Assembly (NCBI RefSeq): GCF_028561335.1
Contig: NZ_JAQQTG010000050.1
Location: 62,001 to 126,000 of the forward strand
Direction: 5' to 3'
Source: Aequorivita todarodis
GTDB lineage: Bacteria; Bacteroidota; Bacteroidia; Flavobacteriales; Flavobacteriaceae
DNA: 64,000 bases
Positions 6,156-17,726 of the stretch are shown one piece after another. Under the pieces are notes generated by a model. That model saw only the letters and a list, made by a program, of their open reading frames with translations, searched no databases and was not told where the DNA came from. Position numbers and translations under genes: made by a program. The stretch's first letter is position 1; each line of letters starts with the position of its first letter.

Positions 6156-6905
6156 ATGGAAGACATTTTTTATAAAAATCTTCTGAAATCGATATCCGAA
6201 AAGGAAAGGCAACTTGCCATTTTGATTGACCCCGATAAATTCAACAGTTCTGAAACCGATTCTTTTCTGAAAAAAATTCCGAAGCAAACCACCCATCTTT
6301 TTGTGGGCGGAAGCACCGTTGCCAATGGCGAAACCGAAGCAACCGTAAAAGCGTTGAAAGCTGAAACAAATCTGCCAATCTTTCTATTTCCGGGCGACTG
6401 GTCGCATATTACGCCCTTTGCCGATGCGCTTTTGTTTTTAACATTGCTTTCTGGGCGGAATGCGGAATATTTGGTGGGTCAGCAGATAAAGTCCATTTCA
6501 AAATTGAAAAATAGTTCTTTGGAAATTATTTCCACAGGTTACATTTTGATTGATGGCGGCAATGATTCGGCAGTTTCAAAAGTGACGAATACGGAACCGC
6601 TTCCGCAGGAAAATATTGAAAACATTGTGCATACGGCATTGGCAGGCCAATTTATGGGGGCGAAAATTATTTATTTGGAAGCGGGTAGCGGCGCAAAATT
6701 TCCCGTAAAACCCGAAATCATTTCCGAAGTAAAAAAAGCTATCAACATCCCTTTAATAGTTGGCGGCGGAATAAAAACCGAAGCACAAAACAATACCGCT
6801 TACGAAGCTGGAGCGGATATGGTTGTGATGGGAACGGCGTTTGAACATCCCACCCCGGCCCTCCCTTCGAAGGGAGGGGGCAATTCCCCCTTTGAAGGGG
6901 GTTAG
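6156..6905 (+). CDS. Heptaprenyl/geranylgeranylglyceryl phosphate synthase (PcrB family) with repeat-derived C-terminus
   Basis: TIM-barrel prenyltransferase of the PcrB/GGGPS family, which joins a polyprenyl diphosphate to glycerol-1-phosphate to make an ether lipid precursor. Visible: LAILIDPDKF near the N-terminus (Mg/phosphate site), LFVGGSTVANGE, IYLEAGSGAKFPV, LIVGGGIKTE and ADMVVMGTAFE, all conserved. The oddity is the end: after GTAFE the frame runs into a palindromic element (6844-6914), which supplies the last residues (HPTPALPSKGGG...) and the TAG stop. The native C-terminal helix after GTAFE therefore appears to be lost or replaced. The phosphate-binding loops are intact, so the enzyme may still work. 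Confidence 0.88.
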   Translation: MEDIFYKNLLKSISEKERQLAILIDPDKFNSSETDSFLKKIPKQTTHLFVGGSTVANGETEATVKALKAETNLPIFLFPGDWSHITPFADALLFLTLLSGRNAEYLVGQQIKSISKLKNSSLEIISTGYILIDGGNDSAVSKVTNTEPLPQENIENIVHTALAGQFMGAKIIYLEAGSGAKFPVKPEIISEVKKAINIPLIVGGGIKTEAQNNTAYEAGADMVVMGTAFEHPTPALPSKGGGNSPFEGG

Positions 6906-6914
6906 GGGGATGTT
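6844..6914. repeat. Palindromic MITE-like element with AACATCCC ends
   Basis: 71 bases bounded by the inverted repeat AACATCCC (6844-6851) / GGGATGTT (6907-6914). Inside are two strong hairpins, CCCTCCC-TTCGAA-GGGAGGG (6859-6878) and CCCCC-TTTGAA-GGGGG (6886-6901). It covers the 3' end of the pcrB-like gene and provides its stop codon. The same ends bound the element at 15061-15169. Confidence 0.8.
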
Positions 6915-6939
6915 AATCTTAAATTAAAATTAATATACT

Positions 6940-10299: not shown

Positions 10300-10614
10300 T
10301 GATTCCGCATTTGCTCCCTTTAGGGCTGGGGTATCAGTTTCTACTCTCTTTAGGGTCGGGATTTTCTACTCCCTTTAGGGCCGGCGTAAAAAATTAAAGA
10401 ATTTTACACAACAACTGTGTAATTTTTACACAACTGTGCTTTCCATTACACACTTTTTAGAAAATTCAATAATATTCAAAATCGAATAAATCACTGTTGT
10501 TCAGTGTTTTGAGGAATATTTCTATCGCCTTTTTTCTGTGGCACTACTTTTTCTATATACAAGGCAACAAACAAACTTAGAAACGAATAAATAATTTTTT
10601 AAAAACAAAAAACA
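10300..10614. other. Intergenic region with CCCTTTAGGG repeats and small inverted repeats
   Basis: 315 bases without a gene. It opens with three diverged copies of a unit centred on (C)TCCCTTTAGGG followed by a G-rich tail (10313-10384). Next come TTACACA-ACAAC-TGTGTAA (10404-10422), a related ACACAACTGTG string, and CACTG-TTGTT-CAGTG (10492-10506). The last 60 bases before the ATG at 10615 are A-rich leader. The inverted repeats could be operators or hairpins; no RNA family is recognised. Confidence 0.5.
10313..10384 (+). repeat. Three copies of a CTCCCTTTAGGG-GGGG unit
   Basis: Units beginning TGCTCCCTTTAGGG, TACTCTCTTTAGGG and TACTCCCTTTAGGG, each followed by a variable C/TGGG tail and a short spacer. 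Each contains a CCCTTTAGGG near-palindrome. They lie just after the arfB stop. Confidence 0.65.
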
Positions 10615-15060: not shown

Positions 15061-15169
15061 AACATCCCTCCCAGCCTCCCTTCAAGGGGAGGAGTTTGAT
15101 TTGAATTTAATTTATGATTTGAGTACAACAGAAAAAGTCTCCCTTTGAAGGGAGATTTAGAGGGATGTT
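15061..15169. repeat. Palindromic MITE-like element, 109 bases, AACATCCCT ends
   Basis: Perfect 9-base terminal inverted repeats AACATCCCT (15061-15069) and AGGGATGTT (15161-15169) enclose two hairpins, CCTCCC-TTCAA-GGGGAGG and CTCCCTT-TGA-AGGGAG, and an A/T-rich centre. Same family as 6844-6914. It lies between the kinase start and the riboswitch promoter. Confidence 0.85.
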
Positions 15170-15245
15170 TAGAGCTTATAGTTTGGATTATTTTGTAAAT
15201 CTATATTACTATTTAAAAAGCCCACATTATAAATAAAAGGAATTG

Positions 15246-15253: not shown

Positions 15254-15257
15254 CCGA

Positions 15258-15412
15258 ACATCTCAAAGGGGTGCAGATTTTAGTTATGGGTTATGAGTTA
15301 TGGGTTATGGGTTGAAAAAACTCTGAACTCTGAACTCAAAACTCTGAACTCGAAGAAGCTGAGATTATACCCAAAGAACCTGGGCGGGTAATGCCGCCAA
15401 GGGATACAAATA
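15258..15412 (+). ncRNA. TPP (THI-box) riboswitch aptamer
   Basis: Conserved aptamer strings are present in order: GGGGTGC (15268-15274), GCTGAGATTATACCC (15358-15372), GAACCTG, then GGCGGGTAATGCCGCC and AAGGGATA, corresponding to the canonical GCUGAGA...ACCUGA...GGnUAAUGCCnGC...AGGGA set. Known: TPP binding represses the downstream gene. The variable arm between GGGGTGC and GCTGAGA is long (83 bases) and consists of two 7-base tandem arrays (15284-15311 and 15321-15355) that can pair. A terminator (15419-15459) follows as expression platform, and the regulated gene is the TonB-dependent receptor at 15525. Confidence 0.93.
15284..15355 (+). repeat. Two facing 7-base tandem arrays in the riboswitch arm
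   Basis: Array A is TTATGGG, TTATGAG, TTATGGG, TTATGGG (15284-15311). Array B is CTCTGAA, CTCTGAA, CTCAAAA, CTCTGAA, CTCGAAG (15321-15355). They are separated by TTGAAAAAA. GGGUU of A can pair with AACUC of B in every unit (with one G-U), giving a periodic imperfect stem. Confidence 0.85.
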
Positions 15413-15418
15413 GGAACC

Positions 15419-15459
15419 CCCTGTAATATTGCACGACGCAATGTTTTCAGGGTTTTTTT
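15419..15459 (+). terminator. Riboswitch expression-platform terminator
   Basis: Stem CCCTG...TATTGC-ACGAC-GCAATG...CAGGG followed by seven T (15453-15459), immediately after the aptamer. It fits ligand-controlled premature termination. Confidence 0.8.
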
Positions 15460-15524
15460 ATATAAACCATTTAACAAACCAAGAATAACGCCCCTTTTAT
15501 TCGTAAAAATTTAAAAAATTACGA

Positions 15525-17726
15525 ATGAAAAAGTTATTGATTTCCGCAGTTTTTACTTCTCTTTTTATTACCGTTTCCGCGCAGGAAAAAACGCAGGATT
15601 CCACAAAAATTGAAGCCTTGGACGAAGTTTTGGTACAAGCCGTCCGAGTAGATGCCGATTCACCAATTACTCACTCAAACCTCGACAAAGAGGAGCTCGA
15701 AAAACGAAACCTCGGGCAGGATATTCCGTATATGCTCAACTATCTTCCGTCGGTGGTTACCACGAGCGATGCTGGCGCTGGCGTTGGCTATACCTACATT
15801 CGTGTTCGTGGGAGCGATGCTTCGCGCGTAAATGTTACGCTGAATGGAATTCCGTATAACGATTCCGAAAGCCAAGGCACATTTTGGGTGAATCTGCCCG
15901 ATTTTACTTCCTCGGTGCAAAGTCTGCAATTGCAGCGCGGCGTGGGGACTTCAACCAACGGTTCGGGCGCTTTTGGTGCGAGCTTGAATTTGTTGAGCGA
16001 TGCCGTTTCAAACGAAGCGTTTGGGGAAATTGCAAATTCCTTCGGAAGTTATAATACACATAAACACAACGTCAAGTTCAGCACTGGCTTGCTTTCTGAC
16101 CATTTTGAAGTGGCGGGAAGGTTGTCAACCATTCAATCCGATGGCTATATTGACCGGGCCAGTTCCGACTTGAAATCCTATTTTTTGCAGGCTGCTTTTG
16201 TAAATAGGAATACGTTAATAAAAGCCTTGGTTTTCGGCGGCAGGGAAGAAACTTACCAATCGTGGAACGGTTTGGAAGACCCCGAAAAGCTTGAAAACGA
16301 CCGTACCTTTAATTCTGCCGGAATGTACACCGATGAAGACGGAAACATTCAGTTTTATGACAACGAAGTAGATAATTATGCGCAGGACCACTACCAACTG
16401 CTTTGGAACCAGCGTTTCAACAATAATTGGAGCACCAACGTTTCGTTGAATTACACAAAAGGGAAGGGTTATTTTGAACAGTACAAAGAGGATGAAGATT
16501 TTGAAACGTACGGTTTTGAAACTATAGAAATTGGCGGAGATACCATAAATACAACCGATTTGATTCGTCGTCGTTGGCTCGATAACGATTTTTACGCGGC
16601 CAATGCAAATGTGAATTACAAAAACAACAAAATTGATTTTACTGGCGGGGCGTTTTATAGTTATTACACGGGCGACCATTACGGCGAAGTAATCTGGGCG
16701 CGCTACGCCAGCAATTCTGAAATACGGGACCGTTATTACGAAGGGAACGGCGAAAAAAGTGAATTCACCGTTTTTTCAAAAGCAACGTATCGAATCAATG
16801 AAAAGTGGACCGTGTTCGGCGATTTGCAGGGACGGTTTTTGAACTATAATATTTCGGGAATTACTTCAGATTTGGAGGCTTTGAATGTTGACGAAAACTA
16901 TGCCTTTTTCAACCCAAAAGCGGGATTGACCTATAAATTAAATCCTTCAAACCAGTTCTATTTCTCCTACGGAAAGGCGCACCGCGAACCTTCGCGCAAC
17001 GATTACGAACAGGGAATTGTTACGCCCGAAAAGTTGGACGATTTTGAATTGGGCTGGCGTTTTGCTTCCGACCCGCCTGCCGGACGGGCAGGAAAAACAA
17101 AAGTGAATACCAATATATTCTTTATGAATTACAAAGACCAATTGGTACTTTCCGGCGAACTGAACGATGTGGGCGCGCCCTTACGAACCAGCAGCGGAAA
17201 AAGCTACCGATTGGGGCTGGAAGTGGATGCCGAAATACAGCTTTTGAAAAATTTGCGAACGCTGCCAAATATCGCTTTGAGCACCAATAAAAATGTGGAT
17301 TTCGTCACTTCCCGCGATGGGGAACTGGTCAATTTGGGAAATACAAATATTTCCTTTTCGCCTTCAATAGTTGCTGGAAATATGCTGGAATATTCGCCAA
17401 TAAGGAAATTGCAATTGGGCTTTCTTTCAAAATTTGTGGGCGAACAATATATGGGCAATATTGACAGCGAGGCTTCAAAATTGGACAGTTATTTCGTGAA
17501 TAACTTAAACATTGTTTACACTTTGGACTCGCTTCCGTGGGTAAAGGAAGTAGTTTTTTCAGCCTTGGTGAACAATATTTTTAACGTGGAATATATTTCC
17601 AACGGATACTTTTATACTTATGATGATGATTTCAGCAATCCCGGAACCGTTACTACCGTGGAAGGCGCGGGATATTATCCGCAGGCGACGATTAACTTTT
17701 TGGTGGGAGCTACGGTGAAGTTTTAA
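15525..17726 (+). CDS. TonB-dependent outer-membrane receptor, thiamine-regulated (Omr1-like)
   Basis: A 733-residue outer-membrane transporter. Signal peptide MKKLLISAVFTSLFITVSAQ; a TonB-box-like segment near ALDEVLVQAVRVD; plug motifs including YIRVRGSDASRVNVTLNGIPYND and LQRGVGTSTNGSGAFGAS; then a beta barrel ending ...TINFLVGATVKF with the C-terminal aromatic typical of barrels. The TPP riboswitch and terminator upstream mean that it is expressed when thiamine pyrophosphate is low, so its ligand is probably thiamine or a phosphorylated form, as proposed for Omr1 in Bacteroidota. A palindrome (17076-17092) encodes the PPAGRAG near residue 518, in an extracellular-loop-like region. Confidence 0.92.
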   Translation: MKKLLISAVFTSLFITVSAQEKTQDSTKIEALDEVLVQAVRVDADSPITHSNLDKEELEKRNLGQDIPYMLNYLPSVVTTSDAGAGVGYTYIRVRGSDASRVNVTLNGIPYNDSESQGTFWVNLPDFTSSVQSLQLQRGVGTSTNGSGAFGASLNLLSDAVSNEAFGEIANSFGSYNTHKHNVKFSTGLLSDHFEVAGRLSTIQSDGYIDRASSDLKSYFLQAAFVNRNTLIKALVFGGREETYQSWNGLEDPEKLENDRTFNSAGMYTDEDGNIQFYDNEVDNYAQDHYQLLWNQRFNNNWSTNVSLNYTKGKGYFEQYKEDEDFETYGFETIEIGGDTINTTDLIRRRWLDNDFYAANANVNYKNNKIDFTGGAFYSYYTGDHYGEVIWARYASNSEIRDRYYEGNGEKSEFTVFSKATYRINEKWTVFGDLQGRFLNYNISGITSDLEALNVDENYAFFNPKAGLTYKLNPSNQFYFSYGKAHREPSRNDYEQGIVTPEKLDDFELGWRFASDPPAGRAGKTKVNTNIFFMNYKDQLVLSGELNDVGAPLRTSSGKSYRLGLEVDAEIQLLKNLRTLPNIALSTNKNVDFVTSRDGELVNLGNTNISFSPSIVAGNMLEYSPIRKLQLGFLSKFVGEQYMGNIDSEASKLDSYFVNNLNIVYTLDSLPWVKEVVFSALVNNIFNVEYISNGYFYTYDDDFSNPGTVTTVEGAGYYPQATINFLVGATVKF
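17076..17092. repeat. In-frame palindrome CCTGCC-GGACG-GGCAGG in the receptor gene
   Basis: Perfect 6-base arms. The same CCTGCC/GGCAGG arms occur in the greA leader repeat (18300-18330). It translates as the proline/glycine-rich PPAGRAG. Confidence 0.6.

Follow-up and report, generated by a model that had tools for sequence, protein, structure and literature searches.

Heptamer-repeat P3 arms in TPP riboswitch aptamers of Aequorivita todarodis and other Flavobacteriaceae

The stretch of DNA analysed here, hereafter the window, comprises 64,000 nucleotides of Aequorivita todarodis and carries, judged from its sequence, a genuine TPP riboswitch with a P3 arm made of heptad repeats. The aptamer core is conserved, and the heptads of the arm form short helices that pair in register. 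Arms with the same period of 7 nt are found in its relatives, where the two halves of an arm fit each other, long arms are nearly constant in length and whole arms have been swapped. Going by the leaders compared, the riboswitch in the window is one case of a family-wide pattern. We consider it likely that it serves a TonB-dependent receptor, and that its P3 stem arose from a mutational process of period 7, was spread by recombination and is tolerated while its foot stays closed.

Aptamer and P3 arm of the window

The element had been described in a preliminary description as a TPP riboswitch, and by a covariance-model match it is a TPP aptamer. A relaxed Rfam cmscan gave a full-length match to RF00059 (model positions 1–105) at 15257–15421 on the plus strand, as are the parts of the leader and the receptor gene given below, with a score of 31.2 bits and an E value of 2e-4. 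This is under the Rfam gathering score for TPP of 54.3 bits, a limit that serves curation and does not describe structure, and a default Rfam scan of the window listed no TPP riboswitch because of this cut-off, not because the aptamer is absent. The low score is explained by the long P3 insert, which is penalised by the model. Most TPP aptamers in related genomes likewise score below the gathering threshold.

The element shares with RF00059 the helices P1 and P2, the THI-box GCUGAGA, a P4/P5 arm with the UAAUGCC core and a position ahead of a thiamine-related transporter. The 5' strand of P1 (AUCUC, 15260–15264), in the Rfam-aligned region, pairs by inspection with GGGAU at 15401–15405, and the 5' strand of P2 (GGGGU, 15268–15272) is aligned with ACCC at 15369–15372. 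The conserved THI-box J3/2 (UGAGA) with the 3' strand of P2 spans 15360–15372 and is identical in relatives, and the P4/P5 arm CCUGGGCGGGUAAUGCCGCC lies at 15379–15398. The full arrangement GGGGUGC...GCUGAGA...ACCC with the UAAUGCC core is seen in both the sequence and the Rfam alignment, and is conserved in relatives. What differs is P3, usually a short hairpin, here 83 nt of facing heptamer arrays. The Rfam alignment rules out that the arm is the optional P3a stem, as the segment between GAGA and ACCC consists of UUAU only and the arm sits in P3. A second TPP aptamer of the same genome has a P3 arm of 13 nt, and its counterparts in congeners have arms of 13–18 nt.

By the Rfam alignment and the fold of the isolated arm, P3 spans 15273–15359. 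Its native foot has two pairs only (G15273–C15359 and C15274–G15358), followed by an internal loop, and encloses the insert at 15275–15357. The two facing arrays of four and five units between GGGGTGC and GCTGAGA, proposed earlier, can be read directly from the sequence, with three variant units. The 5' array of TTATGGG (15284–15311) reads TTATGGG TTATGAG TTATGGG TTATGGG, i.e. three exact units and one variant, and the 3' array of CTCTGAA (15321–15355) reads CTCTGAA CTCTGAA CTCAAAA CTCTGAA CTCGAAG, three exact units and two variants. Tandem Repeats Finder detected each array independently, at 15283–15313 (period 7, 4.4 copies) and 15319–15351 (period 7, 4.7 copies).

Folded in isolation, the arm has a minimum free energy (MFE) of -30.3 kcal/mol and forms five helices (15282–85/15347–50, 15288–92/15340–44, 15294–99/15333–38, 15302–06/15326–30 and 15309–13/15319–23), the cores of which recur every 7 nt on each strand, paired in register. 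The surrounding region of 211 nt was more stable than 200 out of 200 dinucleotide shuffles (z -3.3). The units pair as GGGUU/AACUC with a central G-U. Of the earlier claim that this core pairs in every unit, the in-register pairing holds in the fold, whereas one unit pairs as UGAGUU/AACUCA instead. The fold of this arm, like the consensus folds of three arm families of unrelated sequence, supports the view that the spacing of the internal loops in the stem is set by the period of the repeats. In the unconstrained MFE structure, computed without ligand, the 5' foot of P3, AGAUUUUAGU, pairs with the conserved GCUGAGAUU of the THI-box and the native foot is not formed.

Downstream receptor and expression platform

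The gene following the riboswitch (15525–17726) encodes a TonB-dependent receptor with the Pfam domains TonB_dep_Rec_b-barrel and Plug. It is probably a thiamine transporter of the outer membrane, a substrate suggested by the riboswitch and by OMthi BT2390 of B. thetaiotaomicron, a TonB-dependent receptor linked to a TPP riboswitch for which genetic evidence shows a contribution to thiamine uptake (PMC5613172). The likeness between the two lies in the arrangement, a TPP riboswitch ahead of a TonB-dependent receptor. The named relatives of the window's receptor are from Aequorivita or point to its close neighbourhood.

Between aptamer and gene, folding points to a probable intrinsic terminator at 15415–15459 (AACCCCCUG...CAGGGUU followed by a U tract), which is kept in two relatives. 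The segment 15406–15470 folds at -19.7 kcal/mol. A consensus terminator scan, which covered only short stems without mismatches and with small loops, did not list it. Further downstream CGCCCCUUU (15489–15497), a candidate part of the expression platform, is complementary to AAAGGGGUG at 15265–15273. The duplex has an energy of -14.8 kcal/mol and is also present in the MFE structure of the whole leader. Among the orthologous leaders, most have CCCCTTTT conserved ahead of the start codon.

From these elements the riboswitch is probably an OFF switch for the receptor. Binding of TPP would close P1 and P2 and permit the terminator, and without TPP AAAGGGGUG could pair with CGCCCCUUU ahead of the start codon. 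The P3 stem would then be an independent domain in both states and not the switch itself.

Two further observations concern the start of the receptor gene. A palindrome CCCCTTTTATTCGTA...TACGAATG overlaps its start codon, at 15489–15527 of the window and in leaders L121–L179, and is present at 54 of 80 orthologous loci. The CCCCUUU of this region is complementary to AAAGGGG of the aptamer.

Arms in related genomes and how they change

Among 79 distinct receptor-linked arms from orthologous leaders, P3 falls into two length classes, of 8–42 nt and 53–94 nt. In the 45 that measure 50 nt or more, the match at lag 7 is 0.516 as compared to 0.302 in shuffled arms (z 26.5). The rise is equal at lag 14, and the other lags from 2 to 16 are at or below the null. 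The same was seen in 23 further arms, obtained with a pattern search that matched 35 of 299 genomes of the family, where lag 7 gave 0.470, lag 14 0.428 and the others 0.24–0.32. In this replicate sample the same TonB-dependent receptor adjoins all 30 of the 30 long-arm aptamers examined. The preliminary description had set an ordinary short arm in relatives against its own reading. Two congeners do have arms of 23 and 25 nt, whereas long arms of period 7 are found in the majority of congeners and in many further genera.

At least four families of arms exist within Aequorivita, namely A (AGTTATG/AACTCTG, the family of the window), B (GATTGNA/AATCNNN), C (TACGAAG/TTCGTCG) and D (AGTTAAC/AACTTTT). 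The consensus folds of families A, B and C each consist of short helices with a spacing of about 7 nt. Conservation of paired columns and linkers in the three families is 0.88 and 0.52, 0.85 and 0.60, and 0.89 and 0.61, a difference that is supportive but not independent, as the structures themselves come from these alignments. In the alignment of family A, base-pair covariation was no greater than in shuffles. Across families the two halves of an arm fit each other strongly: in 36 greedy representatives less than 65% alike, the 5' and 3' halves of the same arm pair at -20.1 kcal/mol as compared to -10.6 kcal/mol for swapped halves, and none of 20000 permutations was as good.

Arm families are intermixed in a tree of the receptors, in which the species of the window groups with A. 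aquimaris (family A) and A. vladivostokensis (a different family) with a support of 98. When leaders are aligned, one arm is seen to have taken the place of another between GGGGTGC and GCTGAGA, the invariant blocks of the aptamer, with flanks that are similar to near-identical. This is exemplified by L138, with a heptad arm of 86 nt, and L139/L140, with 31 nt, whose flanks are much alike; further replacements were found between L171 and L187, between L149 and L184, and between the window and L092. As a separate observation, the stretch from aptamer to start codon is also replaced between L138 and L139/L140, in leaders that are otherwise near-identical, so that expression platforms are subject to turnover as well.

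The earlier proposal that arm length changes by repeat expansion or contraction is not well supported by these comparisons. In its stronger form, slippage would gain or lose heptamers and so set the length of the arm and hence the thiamine response. An exact loss of one heptamer from the 3' array of a family-B arm (84 nt in L099, 91 nt in L096) is what such tuning predicts, as are the two lengths of the AGTTAAC-type arm (54 and 81 nt in L102 and L093). However, the family-A arms of eight species are all 82–83 nt with equal copy number, those of family C are mostly 77 nt, and wholesale replacement of the arm is the usual change, which makes copy-number tuning very unlikely. Since copy number is near-constant within a family, it is mainly by whole-arm swapping that the arms change, and not by tuning of repeat number.

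The long arms are also uniform in size between families: the 65 distinct arms of at least 60 nt have a mean of 81.0 nt (sd 6.4), and 63 of them are within 70–95 nt. Candidates above 95 nt amounted to two matches only in 119 genomes of the order, and these look like products of a chance GGGGTGC upstream. The uniform length of arms that differ in sequence, together with the conserved helical cores, could mean that P3 is selected for a length of about 80 nt, with five heptads on each side, and for regular internal loops. The heptads would then be functional and not filler, for example to stabilise the apo form, to pace co-transcriptional folding or to bind a protein; a role of the first kind has been suggested for the distal P3 extension of the eukaryotic aptamer, where it would stabilise the unbound state (PMC4775224). 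Yet close relatives manage without the long arm, such as the two congeners with 23 and 25 nt, and long and short arms stand between much the same flanks in the three pairs of leaders L138 and L139/L140, L171 and L187, and L149 and L184. The clustering of lengths may be due to inheritance, and heptad hairpins of similar size occur between genes, outside any riboswitch. We therefore regard an adaptive rigid arm as unlikely. A related claim joins these points differently: that the receptor-linked TPP riboswitches of the Flavobacteriaceae carry an exchangeable, length-constrained heptad stem whose families are swapped among species, that the arm of some 80 nt, in which a short helix comes every 7 nt, is kept for its benefit to the riboswitch, and that it belongs to the same class of elements as the intergenic hairpins found genome-wide. 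Taken as a whole we find this claim unlikely.

Enlarged arms also occur in another riboswitch. The cobalamin riboswitch is 274–322 nt long, with enlarged peripheral arms, in three Aequorivita genomes (L287/G020, L288/G000 and L289/G012), as compared to about 212 nt in eight others. Period 7 was weak or absent in the three enlarged arms, and AATC heptads were hinted at in L287 only.

Heptamers in the genome and the origin of the arms

Heptamers are common elsewhere in the genome of A. todarodis. Within 454 kb there are 56 tandem arrays with three or more copies, of which 34 have period 7. This period is found in both arms at 18 of 1178 hairpin-like places as compared to 0–4 for any other single period between 4 and 12; these counts are biased, since the sample consisted of 20 stretches partly picked around known heptamer matches. 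All but one of the 18 period-7 hairpins are wholly outside long ORFs, and as we read them roughly twelve are facing arrays in the true sense, the others being plain arrays that fold on themselves. The GAGTT family of the window is dispersed in 8 of the 11 congeners searched. Three exact GATTGNA units, the motif of family B, were not found outside the P3 arm in the genomes searched for them. As far as three exact units go, a dispersed donor is thus rejected for family B, and dispersed copies do not directly supply every arm.

Facing-heptad hairpins of about 80 nt were seen between genes at L207:8436 and 10256, L208:11986, L206:8721, L215:5681, L202:10991 and L203:19766, of the types TAAGACN/GTCTTAN and CAAATTC/GAATTTG. 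A facing array GTTTAAGT/AAACTTTT at L205:3281 has a period of 8, so not every unit is 7 nt long. Another dispersed element of the window is a REP-like palindrome, CTCCCTT(T)GAAGGGAG / GAGGGATG, present at 6841–6935, 10314–10388 and 15067–15177; one such element is located directly upstream of the TPP riboswitch.

In the preferred reading, a family-wide mutational process that combines unit slippage with inverted copying would make period-7 facing hairpins between genes and thereby supply the arms. These would be spread by recombination across the aptamer blocks, which are conserved. Selection would act mainly for a stem that keeps the GC/GC foot closed and J3/2 and P2 free, while the exact sequence turns over. 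Such selection, for the stem with its sequence left free, would lead to conserved helical cores and variable linkers. The sharp borders at GGGGTGC and GCTGAGA, the recurrence of arm families across genera and the similar hairpins between genes could also be the marks of a mobile heptad-hairpin cassette, inserted in a transposition-like manner by recognition of hairpin tips or aptamer blocks. We consider this very unlikely: the arms showed neither a target duplication nor conserved termini, no enzyme was seen in association with them, the units of family B are not dispersed, and the borders are functionally conserved blocks, so that ordinary recombination or fast divergence suffices. With the aptamer blocks conserved, a single recombination tract would resemble a precise cassette swap.

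Short tandemly repeated (STRR) heptamers are known as tandem repeats between genes and also from a peripheral helix of cyanobacterial RNase P RNA, and differ from the arm of the window in both phylum and host RNA. The best structural parallel is P6b of the Nostoc tRNA-Leu(UAA) group I intron, in which degenerate heptanucleotide repeats pair into a hairpin arm whose length varies mainly by repeat number, according to PMC3488679, citing Costa et al. 2002. The arm of the window shares with P6b a stem in which degenerate 7-nt repeats on the two strands pair in register, but P6b belongs to a cyanobacterial intron with copy number as the main variable, whereas here the host is a riboswitch and the main variable is the arm family. 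Extended P3 arms as such are not new. In the accessible portions of PMC5882874 and PMC4775224, P3 of fungal and other eukaryotic TPP aptamers is variable in sequence and length and many are extended; no heptad-repeat construction is described there, and unlike the riboswitch of the window these aptamers mostly control splicing. Intergenic direct repeats of the heptamer TAACTGA are reported for Beggiatoaceae, Cyanobacteria and Bacteroidetes in the part of PMC4679880 available, including Aequorivita sublithincola if its 'A. sublithincola DSM 14238' is so read. Those arrays are direct repeats mostly ahead of start codons, and facing arrays in a riboswitch arm are not described in that part of the paper. 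It was the only paper on heptamer repeats in Flavobacteria that a literature search turned up, and a search for a heptad-built arm in a riboswitch found no description; subscription papers were mostly outside the scope of both.

Curated models miss riboswitches of this kind because long P3 inserts push their scores below the cut-off. The arms would mean that the architecture of a regulatory RNA has been shaped repeatedly, and in different sequences, by a period-7 repeat-generating process that leaves the ligand core untouched, in parallel to the Nostoc intron of an unrelated phylum. They show at which places RNA families put up with foreign structure, and species that carry the long arm may be paired with species that lack it as natural experiments.
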